The position numbers and the translations under genes are program-made. DNA of 64,000 bases from Fusobacterium varium. Lineage in GTDB: Bacteria > Fusobacteriota > Fusobacteriia > Fusobacteriales > Fusobacteriaceae. The notes below the pieces were generated by a model. It saw only the letters and a program-made list of their open reading frames with translations, was not told the DNA's origin and did not search any database. The stretch is from assembly GCA_900637705.1 (NCBI GenBank), contig LR134390.1:1984001-2048000 (forward strand), in the 5' to 3' direction. Below, in pieces: positions 12,523 through 63,289 of this stretch (its first letter is position 1; the number at the start of each line of letters is the position of its first letter).

Positions 12523-12534
12523 TTTTTACCTCAT

Positions 12535-13576: not shown

Positions 13577-13594
13577 TATAAATTTTCCTTTTCT

Positions 13595-14783: not shown

Positions 14784-14869
14784 TTTATTTCCTCACAATA
14801 TTTTATAGGTAAAAATATAATTTTTATTTCAACCCTTTAAAGTACTCCTCTAATAAATATCTTCTCCTT

Positions 14870-15439: not shown

Positions 15440-15453
15440 ATCTTCCCCTTTAC

Positions 15454-42679: not shown

Positions 42680-45441
42680 ATGCAAAAATTTAAGAGATAC
42701 GTCTTTGCTGTCCTGCTTTTTATATTTTCTATAACTGTTTTTTCAAAACCTTTAGAAAATAGCTCAAACCTAATCACTGGAAAACTTCCCAATGGAATAA
42801 CTTATTACATATATAAAAATAAAAAACCTGAAGAAAAAGCTGAACTTAATCTTGTGGTAAAAGCTGGTTCTTTATATGAAGAGGAGCAGGAACAAGGACT
42901 TGCTCATTTTCTTGAGCATATGGCTTTTAATGGTACTACAAAATATGAAAAAAACGATATGATTAAATACCTTCAGTCCCTTGGTTTAAATTTTGGTGGA
43001 GATCTCAATGCCTATACCTCTTTTGATAGAACTGTATATAAACTTCAAATCCCTTCATCTACATCTAAAGATATAGAAAAAGGAGTAGAAGTTCTTAGAG
43101 AATGGGCAACTGAAGTAACTTTGGCACCTGATCAAGTAGCAAGTGAAAAAAAAGTTATAATAGAAGAATGGAGATTAAGACAAGGACTTTCACAAAGACT
43201 TGGAGATATTCACAAAAAAGCTATCTTTGGTAATTCAAGATACTTTGATAGATTTCCAATAGGGCTTACTGAAACTATTAATGGAGCCACTTCTGAAATT
43301 TTAAAAGTTTTTTATGATAAATGGTATCTTCCTGAAAATATGTCTGTAATTGCTGTTGGCGACTTTGATCCTATTCAAGTAGAAAATATAATTAAAAAAT
43401 ATTTTAATTATACAAGTGATAAGAAATATACAGTTCCTGAAGATTATAAACTTGCTGAATTAGAAAATAAGTACATAGTTTTTACTGATCCTGAAATTAC
43501 ATATAATACTTTTTATATGACAAAGATTTTAGATAGAACTATAGCTAATACTGAAGAGGGAATGAAAGCAAATATTATTGATCAGCTTCTTTTTAATATT
43601 CTCAATACAAGACTATCTAATCTTTGCAAATTAGATAATTCTCCTCTTATGGAAAGCCTTGTATATAAATATTCTATCAATAATCATAGTGATATTTTCA
43701 GCACAGTTGCTAGTATAAGAGATGGAAGAGTAGAGGAGGGAACTGCCCTTCTTAATGCAGCTTTAAAAACTTCTGTAATAAAAGGAATAAATAAAACAGA
43801 ACTTGAATTAGAAAAGAAAAATATTTATAACAGTTATAAAGCTTTAGTTGCTAATAAAGAAAGTATTCAACATGGAACATATATAGATGCTCTTGTTGAA
43901 TATGTAATGTCTGGAGATAGTTTTCTTGATATTGATAAAGAATTTGAATTATTTTCACAAGAATTAGCTGATATAAAACTATCTGATCTTAATAAAAGAA
44001 TGGAAGAGATATATAATGCCAATACTCTTTATTTTATAACTGCACCTTCTAATGGAAAGAATATTCCAAATGACAAACAACTTGAAAAAATAATGACTGA
44101 AAGCAGAGAATCAAAAGATAATTTACTAAACTTCTCTTCAGCAGCTGTAGAACTTCCACCTATTCAGGTTGTAAATGGAAAAATAATTGAATCTTCTGAT
44201 GGTAGCTTCATTCTTTCCAATGGAATAAAAGTATTATCTAAATCTACAGATTTTGACAAAGATAAAATATATATAAAGCTGTTTAAGAAAGAAGGAAGCT
44301 CTGTTGATACATACCCTGAATATTTAAATTCGCTTTTCAGCAGTGACCTGATAATCAGTTCTGGTGTAGCTAATATTTCACCAAATGATTTAGAAAATTT
44401 CATGAAGGGAAAAAATTTCAGTCTTTCTCCATATATTAATGACTATGAGCAGGGGTTCTCCATTACAACAGACAGGGAAAATCTTATTCCTGCTTTGGAA
44501 TATATGAGTTATACTATAAAAGAACCTAAAATTGATGACATAATATTTAAAACAACAATGGAAAATACAAAAGAAAGTATACTTAATAGAAATAATTCTC
44601 CAAGAGCTGTATACAATGATGAAATTTCTAAAATCTACAGTGGAAATAATCAAAGAAGACTTCCACTATCTCTTGAAGATTTGAAAATGATTAATAAAGA
44701 TGAAGCTTTAAATGAATTTAAAAAGAAATTTGATGATTTTAATGGCTATAATTTATTAATAGTTGGTTCATTTGATGAAAAAGAACTTCCAACATTACTT
44801 GAGAAATATTTCGCTTCACTTCCTAATAGTGAAAAAGTAATTTCTCCTAAACCTCTTGATTTAAAAATACCTAAAAATATAGTAAAAAAGAAGTGGTAAA
44901 AGGAGTTGATAAAAAATCTACTGTAACTTTAATCTTTCCATATAATGGTGCTTATGGAGAAAAAGAAAGAATTTTATACAATGGTTTCTCAAGAGTTTTA
45001 AATATAGCTCTTATTGAAGATATCAGAGAAAAAATAGGAGGAGTTTACTCTATTTCATCAAAAGTATCTCTTTCACCAAATAATTTTGGTGAAGATAAAA
45101 TGATAATAAGCTTCAGCTGTGATACTAAAAGAACTGAGGAATTAAAAAATGCTGTACTGAAAACTGTTTCTGATATGTTGAATAAAGATATCGACCAAAA
45201 GCAGATAGACAGCATTATAAAAAACTATGAACTTTCATACAAAAATGAATTAAAGGAAAATATATTCTGGTTGAATTATTTTTATCAAAAATCTACTGTT
45301 AATGCCGAATACAAAGTTCCTACACCAGAAGAATATGCAAAGATAATGCAGAAAAAAGATTTAATGGAATCGGCTAAAAAAGCTATAAATTTAAATAACT
45401 ATATTGATGTAACATTGGTTCCTGAAAAGGAATCTTTATAA
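42680..45441 (+). CDS. M16-family zinc metalloprotease, exported (frame interrupted once)
   Basis: Restored length about 920 residues. An N-terminal signal peptide (residues 1-22, cleavage near 'VFS-KP') is followed by the inverted zinc motif 'HFLEH' (76-80) in 'GLAHFLEHMAFNGT' and a second-ligand region 'KKVIIEEWRLR'. The second M16 half is catalytically degenerate, as usual. The frame breaks at the A6 run 44884-44889; one more base joins '..IPKNIVKK' to 'EVVKGVDKKSTVTLIFPYNG'. PqqL/pitrilysin-like enzymes degrade peptides in the periplasm. It is followed by DUF1904 and yaaA. Confidence 0.9.
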
Positions 45442-46681: not shown

Positions 46682-48758
46682 CTATATTTTATAGATAAAA
46701 AGTGTTATTAACATTATTATAAAACTTGACATAAACCAGAATATTTTTTTCAAATTAAAAATATACTTATATTTTATTTTCTTATATTTATAAAAAATAC
46801 ACTTAAAACAGTTATTAATAATAATGCATATAACAAGAAATAGTAATAATCTAGATACAATAATTCATCTGTTGCTATATTATCTCTAAGACGGCTCTGA
46901 GATAATATAACTGTAAAAAATAATCCTGATGAAGATCCTAAAGTAAATTCCACCCTCTCATTTTCTTTCCCATCTTCTATTAAAATTAATATTCCAAATA
47001 CCATTGACAAAATGATAAAAACTGGAAGAAGACTTGAGATAAATGGAGATAGCATATTCCTTTTTAAATAAATATTGAAAACAAGCTCATGCTCTAAATT
47101 AGAAAGCTTATTAAAACTGAAAAAAGTTCCTATCATATTCCAGCCACTAAGAACTATATCTTTCCTAATTCCATGATTAGATGACATTAATATTCCCTCA
47201 GGGTAATCTGTAAAATCTGGAACTACAACTTTTCCCTGATACATACCTCTTCCCTGCATTTTTAATGAAATTATATTACTTTCAAGAGGATACTTATAAT
47301 AATTAAATTCCTCTCTGAGAAGCATTAAAAACTTTTTAGTAATAATACCATCTCTCTCATTTATAACCCATTCACTATATTCTACAGCATCAGGAAAAAA
47401 AACATCATATTTAGGTTCACTTTCGTGTTGTATTATTCCTGTTATTTTTACATTGTTTGCCTCTTTAAATTCTAGTGATTCTATTTGTAACTTTATTGTA
47501 AGATCTTTACTTAATTTATTTGTCCATAAATAATTATTTAATGCTTCTTTATTATTTATTGTATCAAATCTTCTCATTTCTTCTTTTAATGAACAATAAT
47601 TTATTATTCCTATAAAAGCACATACAAGAAATATTTGTATCCCTGAAATTAATGCTATTTTTTTCCAAGATATTTCTTTTAAATTCATTATGAGATAACT
47701 TCCTAAAAATAATGAGAAAAATATTATCATTAAAAATAAATCTTTTTTTATATCCACTATTCTTCCTACAATAGATTCCTCATCTATAGCTACTATTCCT
47801 ATATATAAAGGTATTTGTGAAAAATATTTATATCCCATAATTGAAGATTGAGATGTTAATTTATTCTTAGTCAATCTTGAAAAATATTCTAATGGATTTT
47901 TCTTATATAATTCTTTTGCAGTCTTATATAAATTTTTATCTTTATCTATTAAAGATTCAGTGAATAAATCTATTCCTAGAAGTTCTTCTTTTGGGTGATA
48001 TATATATCTTGTTGATGGAGATATTAAGAATAAATACTCATATCTTTTAAATTCTGGAGTTTTGAGGAGAGTCTTTAAAAACAAATTGTAATTTTTTATT
48101 TCCAGATAATAAATTTTCCCATTTTCTTTCTTATAAAATCGCATATTTTTCCCTGAAATAATTGGGTATTTTAGTGATTCACTATAATATTTTTCCTTCA
48201 ATGTATTAAATACTTCTCTAGAAAAAGTCACTTTATAATCATTATTTATTGCTACTACTCTAACATTTTTTAATTTTTTATTTTTTAATTTTTTTCTATT
48301 TCGTCTAAAGTATTTAACTCTTCAGATAAAATTTTTTCTAATTTTTTATTGTTGCTATCATTCTCTTTTGATATAATGATTCCATTATTGATAGCAGAAG
48401 AAAATTTTTCTCTAATATATGGAAGTTTATATATTGTGTAATTTTGGCTTATAGTAGTTTTAGGCTTATAAGGAAGATAATTATTAAATATGTTATTATA
48501 ATTAATTTTATCTTCATCTATCTCTTCCCATTTAAAAGTTTTTAAATACAAATCTAACTTTTTTTCTGCCAAAGATAATGATTTTTCTATTTCATTATCT
48601 AATTTTGTCTTTTCATCATATATTACATAAAAAAACTTTCCCATGAAAAAAAGCGATAAAACTATGAAAATAAGCAATACCAAATTTTTAATTTTTTTAA
48701 TTACACCATTAATTTTAAAAAAATTCTCTTTTCTTTTTTCCTCTTCTAAATTTTCCAT
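46682..48758 (-). CDS. Cache sensor fused to a pentameric-ligand-gated-ion-channel-like domain (frame interrupted twice)
   Basis: The start at 48758 gives an N-terminal membrane helix (residues about 25-48) and periplasmic sensor sequence. A missing base in the T7 run 48289-48295 separates it from the main frame, and one in the T4 run 46777-46780 cuts off the end; restored length is about 692. Order: helix, Cache/PDC-like domain ('FLISPSTRYIYHPKEELLGI'), two helices with a K-rich inside loop, a beta-rich domain with 'YYKYPLESNIISLKM' matching the Pro-loop (YPFD) of bacterial channels such as GLIC, then M1 ('FISSLLPVFIILSMVFG'), M2 ('FTLGSSSGLFFTVILSQS'), M3 ('YLDYYYFLLYALLLITVL') and M4 ('FWFMSSFIIMLITLFIY'). 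Inside loops are positively charged as topology predicts. Confidence 0.7.
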
Positions 48759-48774
48759 TCTTCCCCTTTACATA

Positions 48775-49932: not shown

Positions 49933-50241
49933 CTATTTTTTAGTAAGTACCAGCTTTATGTTGTTATCTTTTTTGATGACTTCATAATTAAATACTTCTT
50001 TTTTTTCCAAACCCTTCTTTATATCTTCTATTATATCATCATCTTTAAAAGAAAAATATATTCTGGCTGAATAAAAATTATATTTTTTTAGTGTATTTTC
50101 CAAATATATTATTTCATCAGCTATATAGAATATCTTTTTAGAAAAATCTTTTCTCTTTTCTTCAGGGGTTTTAAAAAATTTTCTTTTTATCCTTTGGAAG
50201 AAGTTCTTAATTTTTTTATTCCTCATCTTCATCATATACAA
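49933..50241 (-). CDS. hypothetical basic protein
   Basis: Up to 102 residues. The N-terminal 30 residues are strongly basic ('MRNKKIKNFFQRIKRKFFK'), then a helix and a beta-alpha-beta-like end ('FNYEVIKKDNNIKLVLTKK'). The start could be any of several Met codons between 50226 and 50241; the longest form overlaps the DUF2589 gene upstream by 26 bases. No recognisable family. Membership of the cluster is inferred from tight spacing. Confidence 0.6.
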   Translation of the reverse strand: MYMMKMRNKKIKNFFQRIKRKFFKTPEEKRKDFSKKIFYIADEIIYLENTLKKYNFYSARIYFSFKDDDIIEDIKKGLEKKEVFNYEVIKKDNNIKLVLTKK

Positions 50242-50842
50242 CTTTTTTATTCTTTTTCTTTAAAGAATTTTTTCTCTTTGGAGCTTCCTCTATTTCTTCT
50301 TCCTCTTCAATATCCTCTTCATTTCCCTCTTCATCAATTAAGGCATACAAAAGAGGTCTATTTCTAAATTCGTCCATTATTCTTTCTATTCCCTCTGGAT
50401 TATCCTGCTCTTCAAACTTTAATTTTATTCCTATATTATTTGAAGTTCTTCCTTTAGTATTATCACTGGTAGGAGCAAGGGTAACTTCAAAACTGGTTCT
50501 ATCAGCATATCTTACTTCATCTTCTTCAGGAATCCCCTCTTTAGTCTTTACTTTTCCCTCATCTATTCTTACATTAAGCTCTATTTCTATTTCTTTAAGT
50601 CTTAATCCTTTAGGTTCTGTCAAAGCCAAAAGAGGAATACTTGCTTTTTTATTATCCTGTACTTTAAAATTATACATTATAGGATTTCCATCTTCATCAA
50701 AGTACTTTCCTATAGATTCAATATAATGATTATTTAATATTTGCTGAGCAGCATTAGCTGAATAAAGAAGTCCTCTTGTTATATCTGAAAGGGATTGGTC
50801 ATTTTGCGACTTTCTAACTTTCCATGGATAACATTTTATCAT
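50216..50842 (-). CDS. DUF2589-like protein with acidic tail
   Basis: 208 residues. 'SLSDITRGLLYSANAAQQILN' opens the protein, followed by beta-rich sequence with 'IPLLALTEPKGLRLKEIEIEL', which parallels the 'PFIAMTGIPNLSMELVTIDF' strand pair of the next gene and supports a DUF2589-type relationship. The C-terminal 40 residues are an acidic, then K-rich tail that is probably disordered. Not exported by sequence. Its neighbour upstream is the clear DUF2589 protein, so the two may form a heteromeric assembly; function unknown. Confidence 0.65.
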   Translation of the reverse strand: MIKCYPWKVRKSQNDQSLSDITRGLLYSANAAQQILNNHYIESIGKYFDEDGNPIMYNFKVQDNKKASIPLLALTEPKGLRLKEIEIELNVRIDEGKVKTKEGIPEEDEVRYADRTSFEVTLAPTSDNTKGRTSNNIGIKLKFEEQDNPEGIERIMDEFRNRPLLYALIDEEGNEEDIEEEEEIEEAPKRKNSLKKKNKKVVYDEDEE

Positions 50843-50895
50843 TTTCTCCTCCTCATATTCTAGTGAGAGGGCTCTTATGAGCCCCCATTAAATTA

Positions 50896-51474
50896 TTAGG
50901 CAGCACTATTTATAATACTTTCTGTATTTCTAGGTGCATTTCCATCTGTTACTTGAGCTGGTTTAGTTACATCATTAGTTATTGCTTCAATTATTCTCAT
51001 CAATGGTTCTGGTGTTTCTTGCTTTCTAGCTTCTACATGGAAAGTATATTTAGATCTTGTATCTGATTTTCTTGTCTGCTCTGATTTATGTGATACACTA
51101 CCACTAAATTTTACTCCAAAACAACCTCCTGAAACACTTGCTCCTACATCAGTAGAACTTGTACTTGTATCTGAAGTAGAAATTTCCATTTCAAAATCTA
51201 TTGTTACTAGTTCCATTGATAAGTTTGGAATCCCAGTCATTGCTATGAATGGTGCAGAAATTGTTTTTTCTACTCTCTCTCCATTTTCAACTGCTGAATA
51301 ATTAAAATTAACATTTTTTACATTTCCATTTTCATCAAGAGCTACCTCTTTGATAAAATTGTACATAGAAGCACTTAATTGTTTTTGTGCATCTACTACT
51401 GCTACTAATGGACTTGCTACTAATGATTCTATTGGTATTGCTTTTAATTGATTTCCTGTAAATGTTTCTGACAT
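50896..51474 (-). CDS. DUF2589 family protein
   Basis: 192 residues. 'IPIESLVASPLVAVVDAQKQ' (about residues 14-33), 'PFIAMTGIPNLSMELVTIDF' and a following Ser/Thr/Gly-rich stretch are the DUF2589 signature. GGAGGAATTA precedes the ATG. It is the first gene after the internal promoter-operator at 51501-51546 and probably the most highly expressed member of the cluster. The biological role of DUF2589 is not established to my knowledge. Confidence 0.85.
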   Translation of the reverse strand: MSETFTGNQLKAIPIESLVASPLVAVVDAQKQLSASMYNFIKEVALDENGNVKNVNFNYSAVENGERVEKTISAPFIAMTGIPNLSMELVTIDFEMEISTSDTSTSSTDVGASVSGGCFGVKFSGSVSHKSEQTRKSDTRSKYTFHVEARKQETPEPLMRIIEAITNDVTKPAQVTDGNAPRNTESIINSAA

Positions 51475-52123: not shown

Positions 52124-52375
52124 TTATTTCATTATATTTTTTGATACTCTAAATCTTACTGCCTTTCTAGGATAAATTTTCATCAATTCTCTAGTTGATA
52201 GGTTGCTTATCACTTTTGGTTTTCTTTTTGCTGTTTCAAATATACATCTGTTGACAAATGTTACTGAATCATATTTTTACAAGGCTTCCTGTAGAGTTTG
52301 TGAAGTATATCTATTTCTTCTAGTGCTGCCTTTTGTGATACCTTTGTATAGATTTGCTAATTCTTTCTTATTCAT
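52124..52375 (-). pseudogene. degraded HU-like gene (second of pair)
   Basis: From ATG 52373-52375, 'MNKKELANLYK' starts like an HU-like protein; after a stretch that only makes sense in another frame ('KVSQKAALEEIDI'), the main frame resumes with 'LQEAL', a TAA codon, then 'KYDSVTFVNRCIFETAKRKP' and 'PRKAVRFRVSKNIMK', the HU core and C-terminal strand. The in-frame stop and the local frame excursion indicate true decay. The intact relatives are at 7692-8274. Confidence 0.65.
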
Positions 52376-52571
52376 CAGCATCAATTCCATTAACTGCATC
52401 TTGCAAACCTGTTCCTGTTCTAAATCATATCTTTTTCTTTGCTTCAATTATTACTGCTTCTTTCATTTGAGGTGTCACTATTTTTCTTGCTTTTACTTCT
52501 TTTTTCTCAAATACTCCCCAATTATTTAATACTACTTTTCCATAGATAGTATGTATCTTTAGTTCCTCCAT
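52368..52571 (-). pseudogene. degraded HU-like gene (first of pair)
   Basis: The frame from ATG 52569-52571 reads 'MEELKIHTIYGKVVLNNWGV' and 'FEKKEVKARKIVTPQ', nearly identical in pattern to 'IIKDWGIFEKKEVKPRKIL' at 8.1 kb. It lacks the N-terminal helices and is interrupted by TGA after '..IIEAKKKI', with 'FRTGTGLQDAVNG' continuing. It overlaps the following pseudogene by a few bases, as the intact pair does. Confidence 0.6.
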
Positions 52572-52626
52572 CTACATGAGTTAATCCACCCATTATCAAT
52601 CATTTAGTCACTCTTTTTTTAGTTGT

Positions 52627-53475
52627 CTACTTGACAGGGGATGGACCAGTTTTTTTTATTCCTGATAAATAATCACCAATTTTTACTAATGCTAATCTGG
52701 CGTTAGTAAAAATTCTATCATCTCTTTCAAAGTAAGGAATATTATTTTGGTTGAGAATCTTTATGATTCTATCCTTTCTTATTAAATAATTTCCATTACC
52801 ATCAAAATTAATTCTTTTTTGTATAGATCTAATTGGGCTGTAAACAATATATTTTTTTAAAGAACGTACAGTAGAGAATGTAGGATTTTTGAAAAGAATT
52901 ATATATTCATTTATTTGATCTATATATTCTTCAGGAACATGTGAATAAGAATAGGTATCAAAATCATACTTATTTTTAGTATTATTTATAGTTATCATTA
53001 AATCTTTAAAACATTTTCCCGTTTTTATTAAAATATCATCTTTATAAAAATTTATAATTAAGGGATATTTAACTTCTTTAGTATCTACAAAATTACTCGG
53101 AAATGAAATCATATTTTTCAAAATAGTTTCTATTTTATTTTCTGATAAAATAGGTTTAGATATATTTGAATCAAATTTATTTATAGCTTGCTTTTTTTCT
53201 TCGTTCCTTTCAGCTATTCTTTCTAAATCTGAATAAGTAGACTCATAAATATATTCTTTATTTACACTTTCAAGACACTTATCATAAAATGTTATATAAT
53301 CATCTTTAGAAATATGCTCAAGAGCTTCAGTTAAATTATTAATATTTTCTTTTAATTCTTCATATTCCATAGGTATTCCGCATCTATCAAAAGGGATTAT
53401 ATAAGTTTTCTCCTTATATTCTATTTCTGAAAAAATATAATTACTAATGTTATTTCTGTTAATAAATTTTGACAT
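52627..53475 (-). CDS. hypothetical protein
   Basis: About 282 residues from ATG 53473-53475, preferred because GGAGGT lies just upstream ('MSKFINRNNISNYIFSEIEY'). An open extension of 14 residues lacks a ribosome site. Mostly hydrophilic, with a helical charged stretch in the middle ('LERIAERNEEKKQAINKF') and no membrane segment or signal peptide. I do not recognise a family. Very A/T-rich codon use and the position beside HU pseudogenes and the DUF2589 cluster suggest an accessory region. Confidence 0.7.
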   Translation of the reverse strand: MSKFINRNNISNYIFSEIEYKEKTYIIPFDRCGIPMEYEELKENINNLTEALEHISKDDYITFYDKCLESVNKEYIYESTYSDLERIAERNEEKKQAINKFDSNISKPILSENKIETILKNMISFPSNFVDTKEVKYPLIINFYKDDILIKTGKCFKDLMITINNTKNKYDFDTYSYSHVPEEYIDQINEYIILFKNPTFSTVRSLKKYIVYSPIRSIQKRINFDGNGNYLIRKDRIIKILNQNNIPYFERDDRIFTNARLALVKIGDYLSGIKKTGPSPVK

Positions 53476-53650
53476 AAAAAAACCTCCAAATGAATTCAAT
53501 ATATTACATTTTACCATAATAATCTTATATTTTTAAATAAATATTTATTTTATAAATTTTTCCACAGACAAATTGCCTGTAGCAAAAAATATTTTTAATA
53601 AAAAAGTGGATAGACAAGACTTGTTATATGTCATACATTTATTTTATTAA

Positions 53651-53703
53651 AAAAAGCTGAGCAACATTTTAAAAAAAAATGTTTTTACTCAGCTCTCTTT
53701 TTT
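53651..53703 (-). terminator. terminator after pduF (bidirectional)
   Basis: GCTGAG...ACATTTT and AAATGT...CTCAGC form a long stem flanked by A-rich and T-rich tracts on the two sides, so it can act on both strands. It is the main feature in the 390-base gap between pduF and the hypothetical gene; the rest is A/T-rich without a gene. Confidence 0.75.
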
Positions 53704-53908
53704 GTATGATATAGTTACCACACCAATTATACATATAATCTCTAAAATCAATATAAGAAATTAGGTAAAATTAAGAAATATTTTAATAATCAACATTTCA
53801 ATAATATTAAACAGACTATCCAAAAATTCTTAGCTTGCTCTATTGAGCACAGACTTTTGAACTCCAGTGCCATTTTTATCTTTTATTCTTTATTACACGC
53901 TTATTTAA

Positions 53909-54664
53909 TTAATTGAAAACAGCTGTATATAGAAGAGCTCCTGCAACTGCTCCTATTATTGGTGCTACAATTGGCACCCAGGCATATGCCCAATCTGAAC
54001 TTCCTTTATGTTTTATTGGAAGAATAGCATGCATTATTCTAGGCCCTAAATCTCTTGCTGGATTAATAGCATATCCAGTAGGTCCACCAAAGCTCATACC
54101 TATTGCCCATACTAGAAATCCCACTAAAAGTCCTCCCAATATTCCAATATTTCCTGAAGCCTCTGCTCCATTAGACAGTGTAAAAGCAACTGCTGTATTT
54201 TTTGCATTTCCTATTCCTAGAACTCCAAAAACAAACATAGCTGTGGCAAGTATCTCTGTTACAACATTCCAAAAATAATTTCTTATAGCTGGCCCTGTAC
54301 AGAATATTCCAAGTAAAGCTTCTTGGTTTTCCTCTTCATCAAAATGCAATTTAAAAGTTAAAAATACTAAAAGACTTCCAAACATAGCTCCAAGAATCTG
54401 TGCCACTATATATCCAAGAAGATATTCCCATTTCAAAGCTCCTATTACAGCTAAAGCTATAGACAATGCTGGATTAAGATGTGCCCCACTTATCCAACCT
54501 ACTGTATATACTGCTGTAGTTATACCTAAAGCCCACGCTGCTGTGATTACCATCCACCCAGCTCCCTGTGCCTTAGATTTTGTCAATGAAACATTTGCTA
54601 CTACTCCTCCCCCGAAAAAAATAATAATGGCTGTTCCTATAAATTCTGCTAAATATACATTCAT
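53909..54664 (-). CDS. pduF: aquaglyceroporin, propanediol diffusion facilitator
   Basis: 251 residues, six membrane helices plus two half-helices carrying the NPA motifs: 'SGAHLNPALSIALA' (about residues 60-73) and 'GYAINPARDLGPRI' (about 197-210). Asp after the second NPA region (NPARDLG) is the mark of the glycerol-facilitator branch rather than water channels. At the end of the pdu operon it most likely admits 1,2-propanediol or glycerol. Confidence 0.92.
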   Translation of the reverse strand: MNVYLAEFIGTAIIIFFGGGVVANVSLTKSKAQGAGWMVITAAWALGITTAVYTVGWISGAHLNPALSIALAVIGALKWEYLLGYIVAQILGAMFGSLLVFLTFKLHFDEEENQEALLGIFCTGPAIRNYFWNVVTEILATAMFVFGVLGIGNAKNTAVAFTLSNGAEASGNIGILGGLLVGFLVWAIGMSFGGPTGYAINPARDLGPRIMHAILPIKHKGSSDWAYAWVPIVAPIIGAVAGALLYTAVFN

Positions 54665-54689
54665 ATTCTAAACCCTCCTAAATATATTT

Positions 54690-55511
54690 TTACTCTAAAC
54701 CTGTAAGTGCTATTCCTAATGGTGTTACTAAAAGAGGTTTATAAGTTTTAATAACTTTTCTTTTAAGTTCTTTTTCAAAAACACTTTCAAATTCTTTAAA
54801 TGTACATGCTCCACCTACTACATAAACATCTTTCACATCAAAATTTTGAATAAATCCTTTAACTATATGGGCCATTTTTTCAACTACTGGTCTAATTATT
54901 TGAAAAACTTCCCCCTCCCTTTTTATATCTTTTTTTATTTTCTCTGCCTCATCAAAAGTTATTCCATAATTTCCTGCAAGAACTAGGGACATATGAGTTC
55001 CTCCTGTAGGTTCATCTGCTGTAAATATTACTTTCCCATCTTTCAAAATGCTTATTCCAGTAGTTCCTCCCCCAACATCTACAACTGCTCCATTTTTTAT
55101 TTTTAAAACTTTTGCTGCTGCTGTTGGCTCATCTACCACTTTAATTATCTCTATATCTGCTGACTCTATTACATTTACTATTGCTTTTACACTTCCACTC
55201 TCAACTCCAGGAGGTATAGCTGTAAACCCTTTTGTTATTTCAATTCCCAATTTATTTTCAAGACTTTCTTTCATTTTTTTTACTATATTGATTGCTCCAA
55301 TAAAATCTACTACTATTCCATCTTTTACAACAGATGAGGAATAGCTTTCTCCACCTACTGGAATACCTTTTTTATCCACTACACACATTACAATATTTGC
55401 TGTTCCTAAATCTACTCCAACAAAATATTCATCTTTTTTAAAGTTTGTATTTGGATTTTCTATGACATTTTCAAATTTTTTTATATACTCATTTACTTTT
55501 TTTAGCTCCAT
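54690..55511 (-). CDS. eutJ: EutJ-family chaperone-like protein
   Basis: 273 residues, actin/Hsp70-like ATPase fold: 'FVGVDLGTANIVMCVVDKKG' (phosphate 1), 'VVDVGGGTTGISIL' (phosphate 2) and 'DVYVVGGACTFKEFE' (adenosine). EutJ is encoded in ethanolamine and some propanediol microcompartment operons and is thought to assist assembly or enzyme reactivation. It lies between pduF and the BMC-T gene with gaps of about 25 and 15 bases. Confidence 0.92.
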   Translation of the reverse strand: MELKKVNEYIKKFENVIENPNTNFKKDEYFVGVDLGTANIVMCVVDKKGIPVGGESYSSSVVKDGIVVDFIGAINIVKKMKESLENKLGIEITKGFTAIPPGVESGSVKAIVNVIESADIEIIKVVDEPTAAAKVLKIKNGAVVDVGGGTTGISILKDGKVIFTADEPTGGTHMSLVLAGNYGITFDEAEKIKKDIKREGEVFQIIRPVVEKMAHIVKGFIQNFDVKDVYVVGGACTFKEFESVFEKELKRKVIKTYKPLLVTPLGIALTGLE

Positions 55512-55526
55512 AATTTTCTCCCTGTT

Positions 55527-56084
55527 TTAGAAACGAAAGTTATTTAAAAATTCCCTGTTTGGTGAATTTATTACTTCTGAAGAGATTAATTCCTTCAATC
55601 CCATTTTTTCTATTCTCTCTACAATATTTACTACAGATGACGTATCTCCTGTAAATATAACAATTCCTTTATTACACATACCCAGTCCTATTTTTATAGT
55701 CAGTATTTCCACTGGACTTTCATCTTCTATAAAATCAGCTGTTTCTATAGCTTGTATAGTATTTGAAAATTCAAGAATTCCCAAACTTTTTACATCATCA
55801 GAAAATTTTACATTTCTATTTATTTTCTTCAAAAGTTCTTCATCTACTCCACTGACCAAACGCTCAGTTATATGCTTATGTTTTTCATTTTCTTTAATTT
55901 CATTTATATATTTTCTAAGATTTTCTATTTCTCCCTGATTTCCACTGCATATTATCATGTATCGTCCTGGACATAAAAGTCTTAGAATTTCTATATCTAC
56001 ATTAAAATTTTTAGTTATCTCATCTAATACAAAAAATCCTGTGCTTATATTTTTAAATTCCAACAGAATCAATGATTTCTTCAT
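55527..56084 (-). CDS. pduT: tandem-BMC shell protein, PduT-like
   Basis: 185 residues with two BMC domains (about 1-88 and 98-180). 'EILRLLCPGRYMIICSGNQG' places a Cys at residue 38, the position that holds the [4Fe-4S] cluster in the central pore of Salmonella PduT trimers. Such shell proteins may pass electrons across the shell. It is downstream of pduP, separated by a hairpin at 56167-56214. Confidence 0.88.
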   Translation of the reverse strand: MKKSLILLEFKNISTGFFVLDEITKNFNVDIEILRLLCPGRYMIICSGNQGEIENLRKYINEIKENEKHKHITERLVSGVDEELLKKINRNVKFSDDVKSLGILEFSNTIQAIETADFIEDESPVEILTIKIGLGMCNKGIVIFTGDTSSVVNIVERIEKMGLKELISSEVINSPNREFLNNFRF

Positions 56085-56166
56085 TATTTCTCCCTTCTTT
56101 CTATCTCTTTTATGATTTTAAAATAAATATATTTTATCTCAAAATTATAAAAGCGATATCTTTAAA

Positions 56167-56214
56167 GAAAAGACTGATTAAAATCAAATTTTTCTTTTAA
56201 AATCAGTCCTTTCT
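56167..56214 (-). terminator. intercistronic hairpin between pduP and pduT
   Basis: On the minus strand GGACTGATT... and ...AATCAGTC form a stem with an A/T-rich interior, followed by TTTTCTTT. It probably lowers read-through from pduP into pduT-eutJ-pduF. Confidence 0.6.
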
Positions 56215-56225
56215 ATTAAAATAAA

Positions 56226-57635
56226 TTATTTTATAGACAAACCTCCGACTAAAACACATCTTCTGTTTCTAGCAAAACTCTTAGCTGATGTAAGCCCTTC
56301 TCCAGTAGGTCCTGCTATAGTAAATGTCGTATGTCCCTCTCCACCTACACCAATACCTGCAAAAGAAGGTCCATTTTTTACTAATATAGTAGTTTCCATA
56401 TCTCTTGCATATTTTGTAAGTACGTCTATATTTTTAGAATGTATCATAGCTGTATGTCTAAGTCCATGTTCCAATTTTTTTGATACTTCTATTCCTTCCA
56501 AAGCATTTTTAACTCTAATGATAGGAAGTATAGGCATTAGTAGTTCCTCTACAGCAAATGGGTGTTCCTTATCAGTTTCTGCTATAATTACTCTTATTTC
56601 ATCTCCAACATTTATTCCTAAATCTTTTAGAATATATGAAGCATCTTTTCCAACATATGCTCTGTTAGGAGATCCATTTTTTAATACCATTCCTGCAAGT
56701 CTTTCTATAACTGCCTTATCTTTTATTAAATATGCTCCATTTTTCTGCATTTCAAAAATAAGATAATCTGTTATAGAATCTACTGCTACTACTTCTTTTT
56801 CTGCAATACATGGAAGATTATTGTCAAAACTGCATCCTGCAACTATATCTTTTGCTGCTTTTTCTATATCTGCAGTTTCATCAACTAATACTGGAGGATT
56901 CCCTGCTCCTGCTCCAATAGCTTTTTTTCCACTTGACATTACACTTTTTACTACTCCTGGTCCACCAGTAGCTACCAGCATTTTAATATCTGGATTTGCC
57001 ATCATTTTATTTGTATTTTCTATGCTTGGTTCAGCAATAGTCACTACAAGGTTTTCTGGTCCTCCTACTTTTCTTACAGCTTCATTAATTATTTCCACAG
57101 TTTTTATAGAAGTTCTTTTAGCTCCTGGGTGTGGTGCAAATACAATAGAATTTCCTGCTGATATCATTCCTATTGAATTACATATTATTGTTTCACTTGG
57201 GTTAGTTGATGGTGTTATTGCTCCAATAACTCCATATGGCGAAAGTTCCATAACTGTAAGTCCGTCGTCACCACTGAAAGCAAAAGCTTTCAAATCTTCA
57301 ACTCCAGGAGTCTTTTCTATTGTTACCTGATGTTTCAGAGCCTTATCAGCCACTCTTCCCATACCAGTTTCCTTTACTCCAAGTTCTGCCAGTTCAAGAA
57401 CATAATCTTTCATCACTTCTCTAATAGAAGCAACTATTTTTTCTCTCATCTCCAACCTTGAACTAAAAAGAATCTCTTGTGCTTTCTTTGCAGCTGTAAT
57501 AGCTTCGTCCATTGAAGAAAAAACTCCATTTTTTGGATTTTCACAACTTTGACATACAGTTTTTATATCTGTTTTTTTCAATTCTTTCATTATCAAAGCT
57601 ACTATTTCATCCATGTTATTTGCTTCTAAGTTCAT
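56226..57635 (-). CDS. pduP: CoA-acylating propionaldehyde dehydrogenase
   Basis: 469 residues, aldehyde-dehydrogenase fold. The N-terminal 'NMDEIVALIMKELKKT' (about residues 7-22) is an amphipathic helix of the kind that targets enzymes into microcompartments. The catalytic Cys is in 'NNLPCIAEKEV' (about 273-283), with the NAD(P)-site 'GAITPSTNPSET' before it. It oxidises propionaldehyde to propionyl-CoA inside the shell. Follows pduO by 12 bases. Confidence 0.96.
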   Translation of the reverse strand: MNLEANNMDEIVALIMKELKKTDIKTVCQSCENPKNGVFSSMDEAITAAKKAQEILFSSRLEMREKIVASIREVMKDYVLELAELGVKETGMGRVADKALKHQVTIEKTPGVEDLKAFAFSGDDGLTVMELSPYGVIGAITPSTNPSETIICNSIGMISAGNSIVFAPHPGAKRTSIKTVEIINEAVRKVGGPENLVVTIAEPSIENTNKMMANPDIKMLVATGGPGVVKSVMSSGKKAIGAGAGNPPVLVDETADIEKAAKDIVAGCSFDNNLPCIAEKEVVAVDSITDYLIFEMQKNGAYLIKDKAVIERLAGMVLKNGSPNRAYVGKDASYILKDLGINVGDEIRVIIAETDKEHPFAVEELLMPILPIIRVKNALEGIEVSKKLEHGLRHTAMIHSKNIDVLTKYARDMETTILVKNGPSFAGIGVGGEGHTTFTIAGPTGEGLTSAKSFARNRRCVLVGGLSIK

Positions 57636-57647
57636 ATTCTTTTCCTC

Positions 57648-58641
57648 CTAACTTTTACAAAAAGCTTCTACGCAAGCTTTTGCAACTGTCATATCTTCAT
57701 CTACTGTTCCTCCGCTCACACCTATTGCTCCTACTATCTCTCCACTTTTTCTCAATAGAGAACCCCCACCAAAAACTACATATCTTTGATCTGTTTGAAG
57801 TCCATATAGAGATCCATTAGGCTGAACTAATTTCGCAAGCTCTGATGTTTCTATTTTTAAAGCTGCTGCTGTATATGCTTTTTTCATTGCTATTTCTATA
57901 CTTGCCAATATAGCATTATCCATTTTTTCTTCTAATATGAGATTTCCTTCTGAATTAACAACTGCTAAAACAAAATCTTTTCCCATCTCTTTTGCTTTAT
58001 TTTTTCCAGATTCCACTATTCTTTTAGCTTCTTCTAGAGATAAAAGATTCTTTTTTCATATATATCAAGTTTTTCTATAATAGCTTTTGAAATATGCCTT
58101 ACTGCTTCCTCATCTTCTACTGCTCTGGCTAAAACAAAAAGTACATCTGAAACTCGATTTATATATTTTAATATTTCTGGAGCTACTTCCTCACTCTCTT
58201 TTAGAGCTACTATTTTTCTTTCACTTCTTCTCACTACTGTTCTTGCTACATGAAGAGCAGCAGACTCAATATTTTCTCCCGGAATGATAAATTTATACAA
58301 TGGAAGAAGATTTTTAGAGTATTCATCTATTATTTTTTCAAGATTTTCTATATCTGATATCTCTATTTTTTCTTTAAGCTTGAGTATTCCATTTTTATCA
58401 CTTGCCAGATGAGCCCCTACAACAAGAAATTTTTCCTGTATCTTATATAGTATCTCTTTTATCTCTTTATTTTTACCAATGCTCTGGCAGCTCCTATGAA
58501 TGCAGCAGATTCATCTATATTTCCATATGTATCCACTTTAATATCATTTTTTGATATTCTGCTTCCACCATATAATCCTGTTTCTCCAGAATCACCTTTT
58601 TTAGTATATACCTTTATTAAATTGGTGTAGACTTCTTTCAT
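57648..58641 (-). CDS. pduO: cob(I)alamin adenosyltransferase PduO with C-terminal GlcG/HbpS domain (frame interrupted twice)
   Basis: Restored length about 331 residues, the usual size for two-domain PduO. Segment 1 (from ATG 58639-58641): 'VYTKKGDSGETGLYGGSRIS', the ATP-binding start. Segment 2: 'INRVSDVLFVLARAVE' with the conserved RxSD. Segment 3: a GlcG/HbpS (DUF336) domain ('AIGVSGGTVDEDMTVAKA'). Breaks are at T5 58470-58474 and T6 58051-58056; one more base in each makes the protein continuous. It makes adenosylcobalamin for the diol dehydratase. Confidence 0.9.
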
Positions 58642-58652
58642 CTTTTCACCAC

Positions 58653-58918
58653 CTAATTCTGTTCTATAGTATCAATTATAGCAACTATGGCTGAATCTAT
58701 TGGAACATTATCCCCACCAAAAGCATACATAGATACACTTCCTTCAGTTACAAGAACCTGATCTCCTATCCCTGCTCCTACACTATCTATACTTACTATT
58801 TCTTTTCCTGTTACTATTCCATTCATATCTATTGGAGCTATAACAAGTATTTTTTTCCATTAAGCCCCTCATCTTTTGTTGTTGATACTATCTTCCCCAC
58901 AACCTTAGCTAAAAACAT
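58653..58918 (-). CDS. pduN: BMC vertex protein PduN (EutN/CcmL family; frame interrupted once)
   Basis: From ATG 58916-58918: 'MFLAKVVGKIVSTTKDEGLN', then a missing base in the T7 run 58850-58856, then 'ILVIAPIDMNGIVTGKEIVS' and 'DSVGAGIGDQVLVTEG'. The restored 88 residues are a complete EutN/CcmL protein, which forms pentamers capping shell vertices. It is too short in either raw frame to be noticed as a long open frame. It sits between pduM and pduO, spaced 16 and 11 bases. Confidence 0.88.
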
Positions 58919-58934
58919 ATTTATCAACTCCTAG

Positions 58935-59645
58935 TTATTTTTCACTTTCAAAAATAATTCCATTATTTTCAGCTTTTTCTCTTGCCAGAGTTGTAATAAT
59001 TGTACCCTTAGATACTATAATTTTTTTATTGTTCATATCATAAATATCTTCAGCAGTGATTATTTTCTTTTCTTTTAAAGAATTTACTTCTAAATTTCTT
59101 CTATTTAAGATATAGTCAGATAATTCACTGCTTCTTACAAATTTAATTCCATAACTTTTTAATTTTTCTATATTAAAATTAATTTGGTCTGCATATGCTG
59201 TTTCATTATCTGCTATACAAGAATCATATACTGCTACTATTTCTTTCTGAGCCAGCAGAGCTTTTGAAATAAGATAAGTCACTGCATTGTCCCTAATTCC
59301 AACAGCAATTTTAGCACAGCTGTTTTTTGTAAGTAATGGAAGGAGTATTATCTCATTCTTTTTTAAAAGAGATTCACAAGTTTTCATACCAAAATCATTA
59401 ATAACATTAAAATTCTGAAATTTTTCTTTTGTTACTATCTCTTCTCCTGCCTTTGAAAAAACTATATCCAACTCATACTTTTGCTTTATTTTTTCAAGTT
59501 CCAGCATAATTTGTCCAAGATTTCCAGTTCCTCCATTGATTACAACCAAACCTCTATTCTTTTCTACTCTATATATTGTTTCCTGTGATTCTATTTTCTT
59601 CAATACTTCCTTGACAATATAATCTACCATCATATCAAAATTCAT
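58935..59645 (-). CDS. pduM: PduM-like microcompartment protein, enlarged
   Basis: 236 residues. The N-terminal 'MMVDYIVKEVLKKIESQ' is an encapsulation-like helix. The C-terminal ~50 residues, 'KKIITAEDIYDMNNKKIIVS' and 'TIITTLAREKAENNGI', match the end of PduM. Between them about 130 residues ('GLVVINGGTGNLGQIMLELE' onward) look like a nucleotide- or flavin-binding alpha/beta domain not found in the ~163-residue Salmonella PduM. PduM is needed for microcompartment structure. The start is supported by GAGGGGTGG. Position between pduL and pduN matches Salmonella order. Confidence 0.78.
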   Translation of the reverse strand: MNFDMMVDYIVKEVLKKIESQETIYRVEKNRGLVVINGGTGNLGQIMLELEKIKQKYELDIVFSKAGEEIVTKEKFQNFNVINDFGMKTCESLLKKNEIILLPLLTKNSCAKIAVGIRDNAVTYLISKALLAQKEIVAVYDSCIADNETAYADQINFNIEKLKSYGIKFVRSSELSDYILNRRNLEVNSLKEKKIITAEDIYDMNNKKIIVSKGTIITTLAREKAENNGIIFESEK

Positions 59646-59671
59646 TTTCCACCCCTCACAGGGTTTTATAT

Positions 59672-59696
59672 AGAAAGGAGTTGAAAACTCCTTTCT
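59672..59696. other. intercistronic stem-loop between pduL and pduM
   Basis: AGAAAGGAGTT, loop GAA, AACTCCTTTCT: a perfect 11-bp stem. No U tract follows on the minus strand, so it is more likely an mRNA-stability or processing element than a terminator. Confidence 0.5.
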
Positions 59697-59703
59697 ATTT
59701 TCA

Positions 59704-60324
59704 TCAATCCCTTATTATTTTTACATAATCATTATTTTTTAATCCAGAAGCATTAGCTTCATCCATGTCCAGATGAATCTCCTTTGCCATATTATTTCCA
59801 ACTCTCATTAAAACGTTGTACAATAGTACTTTTCTTTCACCACATGTTTCAACTTTTACTATATCCCCATCTTTATATCCTTTTATATCAGCTATAAACT
59901 TAGGCATATGTATATGCCTTCCAGCAACGATTACTCCATGCTCTTTTATTACTTCACCTTTAGGACCTATCACTTTTACTCCTGGAGTTCCATCAAGTTT
60001 TCCTGATTCTCTTATTGGAGGTTTTATTCCTAATTTGAAACTATCTGATATTGATATTTCTATCTGAGTTTCTTTTCTTACTGGTCCTAATATTCTGACT
60101 CCTTCAAATTTTCCTTTAGGTCCTTGAATGGTAACAGTTTCCTCTGAAGCAAACTGTCCCGGTTGTTTCATATCTTTCATTCTGGTAAGGGTATGTCCCT
60201 TACCAAACAAAATTTCTAAATCTTCTTGAGAAAGATGGATATGTCTGTTAGATACTCCGACTACCACATCATCAGAAATAACCTCTGTAAGCACCTCTCT
60301 CAAGATATTTTCCAATGATTTCAT
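59704..60324 (-). CDS. pduL: phosphate propanoyltransferase
   Basis: 206 residues. 'VVGVSNRHIHLSQEDLEILF' and 'VIVAGRHIHMPKF' supply the zinc-binding histidines of PduL-type phosphotransacylases, and 'LHLDMDEANAS'-like 'IHLDMDEANASG' near the end is also conserved. The N-terminal 'LENILREVLTEVISD' could be an encapsulation peptide. It converts propionyl-CoA to propionyl-phosphate and recycles CoA inside the shell. Eight bases separate it from the BMC-H gene. Confidence 0.96.
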   Translation of the reverse strand: MKSLENILREVLTEVISDDVVVGVSNRHIHLSQEDLEILFGKGHTLTRMKDMKQPGQFASEETVTIQGPKGKFEGVRILGPVRKETQIEISISDSFKLGIKPPIRESGKLDGTPGVKVIGPKGEVIKEHGVIVAGRHIHMPKFIADIKGYKDGDIVKVETCGERKVLLYNVLMRVGNNMAKEIHLDMDEANASGLKNNDYVKIIRD

Positions 60325-60332
60325 TTAAGACC

Positions 60333-60611
60333 TTATTTTACTAGTTTTGGTAATAATTTTTCTGTATCAGCATGTGGTCTAGGAATTACATGAATAGATT
60401 GAACTGTTCCAACTCTTTCTGCTGCTGCTGCTCCTGCATCTACTGCTGCTTTTACTGCTCCTACATCTCCTCTTACCATTACAGTAACAAGTCCTGATCC
60501 TATTTTTTCATAACCTACTAATTCTACATTTGCTGATTTAGTCATAGCATCTGCTGCTTCAATTGCTCCTACAAGTCCTTTAGTTTCTATTAATCCTAAT
60601 GCGTTACCCAT
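60333..60611 (-). CDS. BMC-H shell protein, PduA/PduJ type
   Basis: 92 residues, single BMC domain: '[20 protein letters not shown]', '[18 protein letters not shown]' and '[15 protein letters not shown]'. Forms hexamers tiling the shell. By position between pduK and pduL it corresponds to pduJ; by sequence PduA and PduJ are hardly distinguishable. AGGAGG precedes the start. Confidence 0.95.
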
Positions 60612-60632
60612 TTTTATTCCTCCTCTAATTTT

Positions 60633-61081
60633 TTATTTTTTAGTTTTTTTCTTGATGTTTTTATTTTTTTTTAAAGGAGCTTCTATCTCCTCAATTACTT
60701 CTACTTCTTCAATTTTTCTTCAACTATATTTTCAGCAACTATTTTTTCTTCAGTTACTTCCAAAGTTTCAGTTTCTTTGCTTTCACAAGAACATTCACAT
60801 TGTTCTTCAGTACTTTCTATCATTTTAGCTACTTCTTCAGACGGTCTTGCTATGACAAGGTGACTCACTACAGTAGTAAGTTTTTCAGCTGCCATTACTG
60901 CTGCATCTACTGCTGCTTTTACTGCTGAAACTTCTCCCTCTATTTTTACTGTGACCATTCCTCCACCTTTTGTCAATTCGTAGCCCAGAAGTCTTACACT
61001 AGCAGCTTTTACTGCTGTATCTCCTGCTTCTACTGCTCCTACCAGTCCTACTACCTCTATTAATCCTAGCGAACTTATCAT
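60633..61081 (-). CDS. pduK: BMC-H shell protein PduK with Cys-containing tail (frame interrupted once)
   Basis: An N-terminal BMC domain ('MISSLGLIEVVGLVGAVEAG', 'VSHLVIARPSEEV') is followed by a tail with 'EEQCECSCESKE', three close cysteines as in the extension of PduK that may bind a metal cluster. The raw frame stops at 60701, but one missing base in the T5 run 60713-60717 extends it to 149 residues, ending in an acidic then lysine-rich tail, close to the usual PduK size. Directly after pduH. Confidence 0.85.
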
Positions 61082-61450
61082 CTATTTTCCTCCTGTCATC
61101 TCTGGGATAATAAATGGATTCCCCTTTATGAGTCTGGCCCCATTTACTCCCACAGCTCTAAGGATATTTTCATCACTATCTAAATCATATCTAAATAATG
61201 GTTTATCCATTTCCAATTTTTCCTGATATAAGGTTACTTCCTTTTCTCCTATTCCTATTCCTACTCCTAATTTAGAAGATTTAGAAGCTGTACTTCCCAT
61301 TATTTTTGCATCAGTATCTTCTGATTGAATAAGGATATATGGAATTTCTTCTTCTTCTATTCCCCATAAGATATTACTTAATTTCCCATTTATGTCTACC
61401 TTTGATGAATAGAAAACATTTATTCCTATCTTTTCTTTTTCCCTTCTCAT
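61082..61450 (-). CDS. pduH: diol dehydratase reactivase small subunit
   Basis: 122 residues. 'INVFYSSKVDINGKLSNILW', 'EEIPYILI' and 'ASKSSKLGVGIGIG' match PduH/DdrB. Together with PduG it exchanges damaged cobalamin in inactivated diol dehydratase. It overlaps pduG by four bases (ATGA). Confidence 0.93.
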   Translation of the reverse strand: MRREKEKIGINVFYSSKVDINGKLSNILWGIEEEEIPYILIQSEDTDAKIMGSTASKSSKLGVGIGIGEKEVTLYQEKLEMDKPLFRYDLDSDENILRAVGVNGARLIKGNPFIIPEMTGGK

Positions 61451-63267
61451 AGCTGTCCCTCCTCATATGAAAGGGCCAGTCCTGTAGCAACTGCATTTCT
61501 TGGACCTTCTGTTCCCCTGATATTTCCTCTTCCTGCTACAACTCCATAATATGAAAGTTTATCAGTTACCATTTGAGGAACTTCAAAATCAAGAGCTGAA
61601 CCTCCTACCAGAACTACATGATCTATATCTCTGATATTTCCACTTGGTGAAACTTTTTTCAAAGCTCTCACAGCATTTACTACAAATACTTTTTCTTTTG
61701 CATCTCTTCTTACTTTTTTAATCTTTTCAATAGGTTCATCTATATCCAAAGGAATCATTTTTCCTTCTTTTAATATGACAACTCTTGCAAAAGTTCTTGG
61801 ATCAAGAGTATCTTCAAAAAACTCAACGCTTCCATCTTCATGTCTGATGTGAAACAGGCTTTCTACTTTTGCCAAAGGATATTTTTTTATATCTTCTGCC
61901 AAATCAAAGTTATCCAATCCCAATTCCTTATCTATAAGCATTGTAACCATATTCCCTGCTCCAGCCAGATGACATGATGATATTCTGCCTTCTCTTGTTA
62001 TTACAGATGCATCTGTAGATCCTGCTCCCATATCTATTATTGCGAGAGGTTTATTAGTCCCTGGAGTAGTAAGAGCTCCTATTATTGCCATTTCAGCTTC
62101 CACTCCTCCAACTACTACACTTTTTCCTAATTTTTCCTGAAGATCTAAAGCTATTCTTTCCATTTGAAGTCTGTCAGCCTTTACCATTGCAGCTAATCCT
62201 ATGGCATTTTCCATTGAAAATTCCTCTGCTATTCCCCCTTTTACTTTCTTGGGAACAAAAGTATTTACTGCCAGCAAGTCTTGTATTTTAATATCTTTGG
62301 GATCCTGATCTGTCAGTTGTGCCATAACTATTCTTACTTTTTCAAGCATTCCACCTGCATTTGTTCCAGTTTCTCCCCAGATGTCATTTATAGGAAAACA
62401 AGCTTCCAGAGCTTCCATTATAGGTTCTGCACCTTTATCTACTTCTATTTCTCTATTTTTTGACATTCCAGCTATATGTATTTTTCCTGCTGGAATTACT
62501 CTTGATTTTACATCTCCTTTAGGAGTTTTTATTACTACAGCTGATCTATTTCCTATCAGAGCTCTTGAAATAGGTACTATCATTTTAGTTTCTTCAGAAT
62601 TGAGTTTAAATAATGTTGCTATTCCATAAGGATTTGAAAGCATTGAAATAACTTTACCCTTTTCAGCAACTTCTAGAGCTGTCAGCATATTTACAGGTAT
62701 TTTTTCAAAATACAGTACTTCATCTACTATTGGAATTTTTTTATTCAGTCTGTTATTTATGAGAACTGCATCATCTTTCTGAACTACTGCTCCTCTTATA
62801 TTTACACCTTTCGCTGTCATTTCATTTATCTTTGCTGCAGCATCCTGAAAATCTATCTCTTTTGATATAAGAGCTATTACATCTTCACCTGCTAGTCTTT
62901 CATCTATATTTTCTATCAGAATAGATGTTCCAACTCCTATTCCTGCCCCTCCTGGAGTAGTAGGATTATGACCTATCATAGTAGATTCAGTTATTATAGT
63001 TTCTGTTATTGTTTCCATTGCAACATCTCCTATAACAGGAGCAGCTTCGTTTATTCTTACCAAGGATAATTCAGAGATATCTCTGCCAGCACTTTGAAAA
63101 GCTTTTTGTAAAGATGAAAATACACCTTTTACATTTTCCTTTGTACCTTTTATTCCAGTAGTTTTTGTTATACCACTGCTTAAAACCTTGATATCTTTTC
63201 CATTGACCTCAGCAAGAGTACTTTCAGTTGTTGCATTTCCTATATCTATTCCTACAATAAGCTTCAT
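61447..63267 (-). CDS. pduG: diol dehydratase reactivase ATPase large subunit
   Basis: 606 residues, the usual DdrA/PduG size. 'IVGIDIGNATTESTLAEVNG' is the actin/Hsp70-like phosphate loop, 'PLAIIDMGAGSTDASVITR' the second nucleotide motif and 'DHVVLVGGSALDFEVPQMV' the adenosine motif. Using ATP it releases inactive cobalamin from diol or glycerol dehydratase. Located between pduE and pduH. Confidence 0.97.
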   Translation of the reverse strand: MKLIVGIDIGNATTESTLAEVNGKDIKVLSSGITKTTGIKGTKENVKGVFSSLQKAFQSAGRDISELSLVRINEAAPVIGDVAMETITETIITESTMIGHNPTTPGGAGIGVGTSILIENIDERLAGEDVIALISKEIDFQDAAAKINEMTAKGVNIRGAVVQKDDAVLINNRLNKKIPIVDEVLYFEKIPVNMLTALEVAEKGKVISMLSNPYGIATLFKLNSEETKMIVPISRALIGNRSAVVIKTPKGDVKSRVIPAGKIHIAGMSKNREIEVDKGAEPIMEALEACFPINDIWGETGTNAGGMLEKVRIVMAQLTDQDPKDIKIQDLLAVNTFVPKKVKGGIAEEFSMENAIGLAAMVKADRLQMERIALDLQEKLGKSVVVGGVEAEMAIIGALTTPGTNKPLAIIDMGAGSTDASVITREGRISSCHLAGAGNMVTMLIDKELGLDNFDLAEDIKKYPLAKVESLFHIRHEDGSVEFFEDTLDPRTFARVVILKEGKMIPLDIDEPIEKIKKVRRDAKEKVFVVNAVRALKKVSPSGNIRDIDHVVLVGGSALDFEVPQMVTDKLSYYGVVAGRGNIRGTEGPRNAVATGLALSYEEGQL

Positions 63268-63289
63268 TTTTCCTCCTAATAGGGAAAGA

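Follow-up and report, generated by a model that had tools for sequence, protein, structure and literature searches.

A putative Cache-type sensor fused to a divergent pentameric ligand-gated channel core in Fusobacterium varium

On the minus strand of the 64 000-nucleotide stretch of DNA from the gut-type anaerobe Fusobacterium varium analysed here (hereafter the window; GC content 28.6%), positions 48758–46682 contain one gene that is read as three frame pieces separated by two single-base losses. The first piece (48758–48285, frame 2) encodes 157 amino acids from the ATG at 48758, a start supported by a Shine-Dalgarno-like AAGGGG read from the sequence four bases ahead of it (48763–48768). 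The second is open for 515 codons, with a listed ORF of 485 amino acids (48231–46774, frame 1), and the third (46780–46685, frame 0, ~32 codons) encodes a hydrophobic helix resembling M4 of pentameric ligand-gated ion channels (pLGICs). All further coordinates of the gene likewise refer to the minus strand. The gene is predicted to encode an N-terminal membrane helix, TM1 (approximately 48621–48692), placed from the translation and the hydropathy-based position of TM1 in homologues, followed by a periplasmic sensor that is probably a diverged dCache domain (approximate limits 47737–48620, from alignment, hhalign and dCache homologues). TM2, after the Cache domain (approximately 47677–47742), was located by alignment, homologue hydropathy and a helix at residues 151–186 of a structural model, and TM3 or M0, directly ahead of the extracellular domain (approximately 47596–47661), by hydropathy, alignment and model helix 189–220. 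The extracellular beta-sandwich of the ligand-binding type extends to the pre-M1 Arg (47059–47595; model strands 241–391, Foldseek, VIA and hhalign) and includes the Pro-loop motif Y-P-L-E (47281–47292, from the translation). It is followed by M1 (46978–47058; model and alignment), the presumed pore-lining M2 (46876–46950; model), M3 (46792–46866; model and alignment) and, in the third frame piece, M4 (46685–46756; translation and intact orthologues).

Alignment with the intact orthologue in a related genome (G007) showed that one base is absent from the window near 48289 (break at 48285–48294) and one near 46792 (break at 46790–46795), bearing out the two restored bases proposed in a preliminary description of this DNA. 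A search of related genomes identified the gene unbroken in two congeners, as a single frame of 696 residues that includes M4. The M4 helix, which the preliminary description had seen only after its second repair, is thus present in intact orthologues, and the third frame piece is identical to the G007 orthologue at 27 of 32 residues. The proposal that sensor and channel form one polypeptide also stood. Split genes in the orthologues were rejected, as both halves lie in the one 696-residue frame, and programmed frameshifting was rejected because the orthologues are read in one frame. The dN/dS ratio over the 485-codon piece was 0.10 against G007, the nearer orthologue, and 0.16 against G001; the reading of the channel gene is therefore not due to chance. 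Between the window and G007 the ratio was lowest in M1–M3 (0.036), the most constrained part of the gene.

Four of the 35 ORFs shared with G007 are frame-broken in the window, with five breaks of one missing base each; no further difference alters a frame overall, a compensating pair close to the beginning of the channel gene preserving its frame. Since single-base losses occur in other shared ORFs too, the breaks in the channel gene are probably sequencing or assembly deletions, neither signs of decay nor peculiar to this gene. With the breaks probably being sequencing deletions, the gene is probably functional in the organism. Breaks in two neighbouring genes at 25014–26854 (minus strand), each lacking one base relative to G007, suggest that this assembly is generally prone to the erroneous loss of single bases. 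An M16 peptidase gene (42680–45441, plus strand), which G007 carries as a single 920-amino-acid frame, is interrupted near 44884, where one base is missing.

The channel gene is carried by three of 98 Fusobacteriota genomes, those of the window strain and the two congeners, and in all three it lies in the same place, beside genes encoding YaaA and DUF1904 proteins and a conserved flank gene. In the window the channel gene probably stands alone, ~310 bases separating it from the end of its nearest upstream neighbour. Somewhat further upstream, two adjoining DUF2589 genes are found at 50216–51474 (minus strand). ORF blocks at ~10488–17954 and 52203–63802 were unmatched in the syntenic G007 stretch and represent variable islands; a comparison of the 49–64 kb region with phage DNA gave no match.

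The pLGIC superfamily includes the acetylcholine, GABA and glycine receptors of nerve cells. Searches with the intact Fusobacterium proteins gave no usable match in Pfam, NCBIfam or PDB sequences (phmmer); PF02931 and PF02932 did not score above cut-off for the channel protein, and across the Fusobacteriota PF02931 gave three weak matches, all under cut-off and none at the channel gene. The window ORF was modelled with AlphaFold using the family alignment (mean pLDDT 63.6, pTM 0.51, with the Cache part poor). A Foldseek search of the PDB with this model returned pLGICs in all of the best 50 rows, with best values for 5-HT3A (8axd, E 1.3e-10) and GLIC (8i42, E 1.7e-10). VIA comparison with pLGICs gave Z-scores of 14.7 to 14.2 (GLIC 14.3) over ~233 residues with rmsd values of 3.2–5.1 A, the matched part being residues ~237–485. 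The extracellular beta-sandwich and M1–M3 are present in the model in the arrangement seen in pLGICs; M4 was identified in the intact orthologues and the third frame piece and aligned across the family. A hhalign comparison of the family core with a profile of PF02931-positive pLGICs gave 96.6% (E 5.7e-10), whereas reversed or shuffled profiles did not exceed 0.4%; the alignment paired the Pro-loops, the pre-M1 Arg residues and the M1 Pro residues of the two sides. A link to ligand-gated channel families, sought by profile search, was thus found with the family profile, Pfam being silent on the intact Fusobacterium proteins. The Fusobacterium pair alone reached only 36.5% against canonical pLGICs (E 3.7e-4), and the Fusobacterium core matched the rest of the family at 100% (E 3.6e-40). 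The family model also detected intermediate pLGICs (L086 at 1.3e-10, L087 and L088), of which L088 matched PF02931 at 1.2e-4, under cut-off. The sequence link to canonical pLGICs exists only at profile level and via such intermediates. Taken with the predicted structure, these profile comparisons support a pLGIC fold for the C-terminal half of the Fusobacterium protein, as the preliminary description had proposed.

Several residues characteristic of the superfamily are conserved. In the Pro-loop [FY]-P-x-D the Pro is absolutely conserved and the last position is D in 93% and E in 3% of the superfamily (Jaiteh et al., 2016; PMC4795631). The Fusobacterium motif represents the 3% variant with Glu, a form also found in family members L019, L081, L082, L083 and L090, and its Pro is invariant in alignment A7. 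The pre-M1 Arg (R571 of L002) and the M1 kink Pro (P583) are both invariant in A7 and are 12 residues apart, the spacing of GLIC (R192/P204). An aromatic residue assigned to beta9 via the hhalign alignment (W544 of L002) is nearly invariant in A7; for the superfamily, frequencies of 71% for the beta9 core W, 88% for the M2–M3 Pro and 79% for a basic M2 0' residue have been reported (PMC4795631). The M2–M3 loop Pro is absent in Fusobacterium (Ala in L002, Met in L003) and replaced by Asn in Vibrio, and is kept in members from Acaryochloris, Syntrophus and most Rheinheimera and in L028; it is a common, not an absolute, pLGIC feature. A basic M2 0' residue, likewise not absolute in the superfamily, is absent, the aligned residue of L002 being Thr. 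The Phe at the aligned 9' position of M2 is an accepted variant among known pLGICs (13%; PMC4795631). Prime positions were assigned from the alignment; on this numbering the −2' residue of the Fusobacterium protein is Glu, like that of GLIC. The aligned 19' position is an Arg that is invariant in A7, like R271 of the glycine receptor. As Glu −2' and Arg 19' point different ways, no ion selectivity was assigned.

The N-terminal domain of the homologous family is clearly a dCache domain as judged by profiles and models, that is, a membrane-flanked periplasmic two-module PDC fold. Pfam dCache_1 was detected in 10 of 19 family members (best member 8.6e-13), a PDB profile search with the family domain identified dCache histidine kinases (4.3e-17), and the model of a full Vibrio homologue matched dCache structures over 242 residues (Z 21.9). 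The Fusobacterium domain itself had no Pfam or PDB match. Its hhalign comparison with the family dCache gave 62% (E 7.6e-5; shuffles 0.1–0.3%) over the membrane-near part only, and the region between TM1 and TM2 measures 293 residues against 260–285 in the dCache homologues. The Cache assignment of the preliminary description is thus strongly supported for the family by Pfam, PDB profile and fold, and with moderate confidence for the Fusobacterium domain, which appears to be a much diverged dCache. A HAMP domain and a cytoplasmic MCP signalling domain are absent, TM2 being followed by only a short cytoplasmic turn.

A scan of genome contigs with the single window protein identified no relative. 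Initial relatives were detected by tblastn against plasmids, in Acaryochloris (E 8e-15) and in Vibrio. A second scan of genomes, with a four-sequence alignment, yielded 22 loci from Vibrionaceae, Rheinheimera, Chloroflexota, Syntrophus, Anammoxibacter, Acaryochloris and metagenome-assembled genomes (MAGs) of Desulfobacterales and Flammeovirgaceae. Hydropathy analysis indicated the same seven-helix layout in the Vibrio, Enterovibrio, Syntrophus and Chloroflexota members; Cache-bearing members have one helix before the Cache domain, two between it and the extracellular domain and four after. Cache-less members (~372–390 amino acids in Rheinheimera and others, 444–487 in Acaryochloris) keep one helix, M0, ahead of the extracellular domain, for which an uncleaved anchor and a signal peptide are indistinguishable here. 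In the phylogenetic tree a branch supported at 100/100 separates the family from canonical pLGICs, and eight Cache-less members cluster together, also at 100/100. The Fusobacterium cores fall with those of the dCache-fused Vibrionaceae proteins at 98/95, a placement subject to a long-branch warning. The Cache-channel clade lay below PF02931 detection in the genomes tested. The PF02931-positive L043 (667 amino acids) has an added N-terminal domain, with no helix between it and the extracellular domain. In Cytophagales, PF02931 retrieved short forms only (open frames of 315–362 amino acids) and no Cache-fused canonical pLGIC.

The preliminary description knew of no such combination of domains, a view that held only in part. 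Tasneem et al. (2004; PMC549065) described proteins of Methanosarcina, Cytophaga and Microbulbifer in which MCP-N and Cache domains precede the bacterial pLGIC core. Fusobacterium varium is listed as a pLGIC bearer by Jaiteh et al. (2016; PMC4795631), an entry that may refer to this very gene. Like the proteins described in 2004, the present gene encodes a Cache domain N-terminal to a pLGIC core in one polypeptide, its Cache assignment being moderate, and occurs sporadically among distant prokaryotes; unlike them, as far as that account describes, it belongs to a clade under PF02931 detection, whereas theirs were found via an animal-type ligand-binding domain. No Cache–pLGIC fusion has been characterised since that first report. 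DeCLIC from Desulfofustis is another prokaryotic pLGIC to which a periplasmic domain has been added; this domain modulates gating (PMC9897478, PMC12664993), and no other pLGIC with such an addition has been even partly characterised (PMC12664993). In its described structure, however, the N-terminal domain consists of two jelly-roll lobes directly on the extracellular domain with no hairpin, whereas in the Fusobacterium protein two membrane helices set the Cache domain off from the extracellular domain. GLIC, the proton-gated channel of Gloeobacter, shares the extracellular beta-sandwich, the Pro-loop and the four-helix channel, but has neither a sensor domain nor M0, and the Fusobacterium protein differs in having no M2–M3 Pro. 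The chemoreceptors PctB, TlpQ and Mlp37 and dCache histidine kinases (3li8/3li9/3lib) also have a periplasmic dCache between two membrane helices; their output is a cytoplasmic chemotaxis or kinase domain, here replaced by a channel. Chemoreceptors are dimers and pLGICs pentamers. The arrangement that appears under-described is thus a Cache domain between two membrane helices followed by M0 ahead of a ligand-binding domain, with the 2004 proteins compared by description only; should the hairpin be common to those proteins, the Fusobacterium layout would not be new. While the Cache–pLGIC fusion as such has been known since 2004, we found no published description of this divergent, seven-helix, Pfam-invisible branch.

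The order of the parts, the intact orthologues, purifying selection, the pLGIC fold and the dCache fold of the homologues were computed here. On the basis of sequence and models, we consider it likely, with good confidence, that the Fusobacterium protein is a Cache-gated pentameric channel in which a solute on the Cache domain would bias the pLGIC pore. The predicted order would be TM1, periplasmic dCache, TM2, a short positive cytoplasmic turn, TM3 (M0), the periplasmic extracellular domain and M1–M4, with five copies forming a pore lined by M2. By analogy with chemoreceptors, a small solute on the Cache domain might shift TM2, and the TM2–M0 hairpin together with periplasmic contacts could pass this shift to the extracellular domain. 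The pore would then open or close, so that the solute might be reported by the membrane potential or by the flux of a particular ion. For this scheme we infer the pentamer, ion conduction, the Cache ligand, the direction and route of coupling, and the topology. More tentatively, and rather doubtfully at present, the family may be a separate seven-helix pLGIC clade whose gating signal passes through the membrane, the Cache domain moving TM2 and the TM2–M0 hairpin relaying this to the channel. If so, the presence of M0 ahead of the extracellular domain would be common to the family, the Cache-less sister clade sharing it; to our knowledge it is unlike any solved pLGIC.

A channel module that is a pLGIC by descent and fold could instead be non-conducting, the protein serving as a membrane sensor or scaffold that signals via other proteins. 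Conduction is a prediction, and loss of the M2–M3 Pro and of the basic 0' residue in Fusobacterium would fit such a role, but the protein lacks a signalling domain and any long cytoplasmic segment, M1–M3 are the segment under the strongest constraint between the window and G007, and Phe at 9' occurs in known pLGICs; we regard this reading as unlikely. It is similarly improbable that a once-functional receptor has truly become a pseudogene in this strain. The assembled sequence does contain two frame breaks, yet other shared genes in the window are broken alike, always by one missing base, and the channel gene is under strong purifying selection.

Doubt about the sensor takes another form, namely that the Fusobacterium N-terminal domain is a periplasmic domain of similar size other than Cache. 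The missing Pfam and PDB matches and the restriction of the alignment with the family dCache to the membrane-near part speak for this, whereas the position between TM1 and TM2 and the length agree with the dCache homologues, the hhalign value stands well apart from those of shuffled sequences (at most 0.3%), and the Fusobacterium cores group with dCache-fused Vibrio cores, subject to the long-branch warning; a diverged dCache is preferred and the alternative seems a slim prospect. As sequence identity to named families is low, the resemblance might also be put down to chance, an unrelated membrane protein with several helices having been read across frameshifts. This, like a chance ORF, was rejected on the intact orthologues, the pLGIC fold match and the profile-comparison controls, and is given virtually no credence. 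A different fold in the C-terminal half, halves encoded separately in orthologues or a missing M4 had been named beforehand as grounds for abandoning the proposed architecture; the fold is that of a pLGIC, the halves are unsplit and M4 is there.

Up to 2016, a biological role was known for no pLGIC of a unicellular organism (PMC4795631). Current family models overlook a whole clade of the superfamily, whose putative Cache ligands could be screened by established chemoreceptor methods, with culturable hosts in Vibrio and Fusobacterium. In Vibrio and Enterovibrio the gene order is a methyltransferase gene, an SBP_bac_3 gene with a membrane part, a gene of 207–208 amino acids and the channel gene, the start of which overlaps the last bases of the preceding gene. 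From the SBP_bac_3 gene context, amino-acid-type solutes are suggested as ligands of the Vibrionaceae branch. This overlap near an amino-acid-type solute-binding/permease gene, together with the Cache class, would make sensing by a bacterial pLGIC directly testable. A Vibrio plasmid (L013, 1610–7721) carries a row of genes encoding an SBP_bac_3/permease-like fusion, a permease-like protein, the Cache-channel, a Lamin Tail Domain protein and a membrane protein. At locus L082 (293–1402 and 1498–3591, minus strand) a Cache-fused channel gene is followed, ~95 bases on, by a short pLGIC-like gene; in the tree the short gene falls among the canonical pLGICs, and it may encode a partner subunit. One contig (G288, C51, 38089–42200) carries genes for a Cache-fused protein of 705 and a Cache-less protein of 390 amino acids (L090 and L079), ~2 kb apart on one strand, and these neighbours might form mixed pentamers. 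The Acaryochloris members L012 and L035 have a C-terminal tail of ~60–100 residues past M4, which is predicted from topology to be periplasmic.
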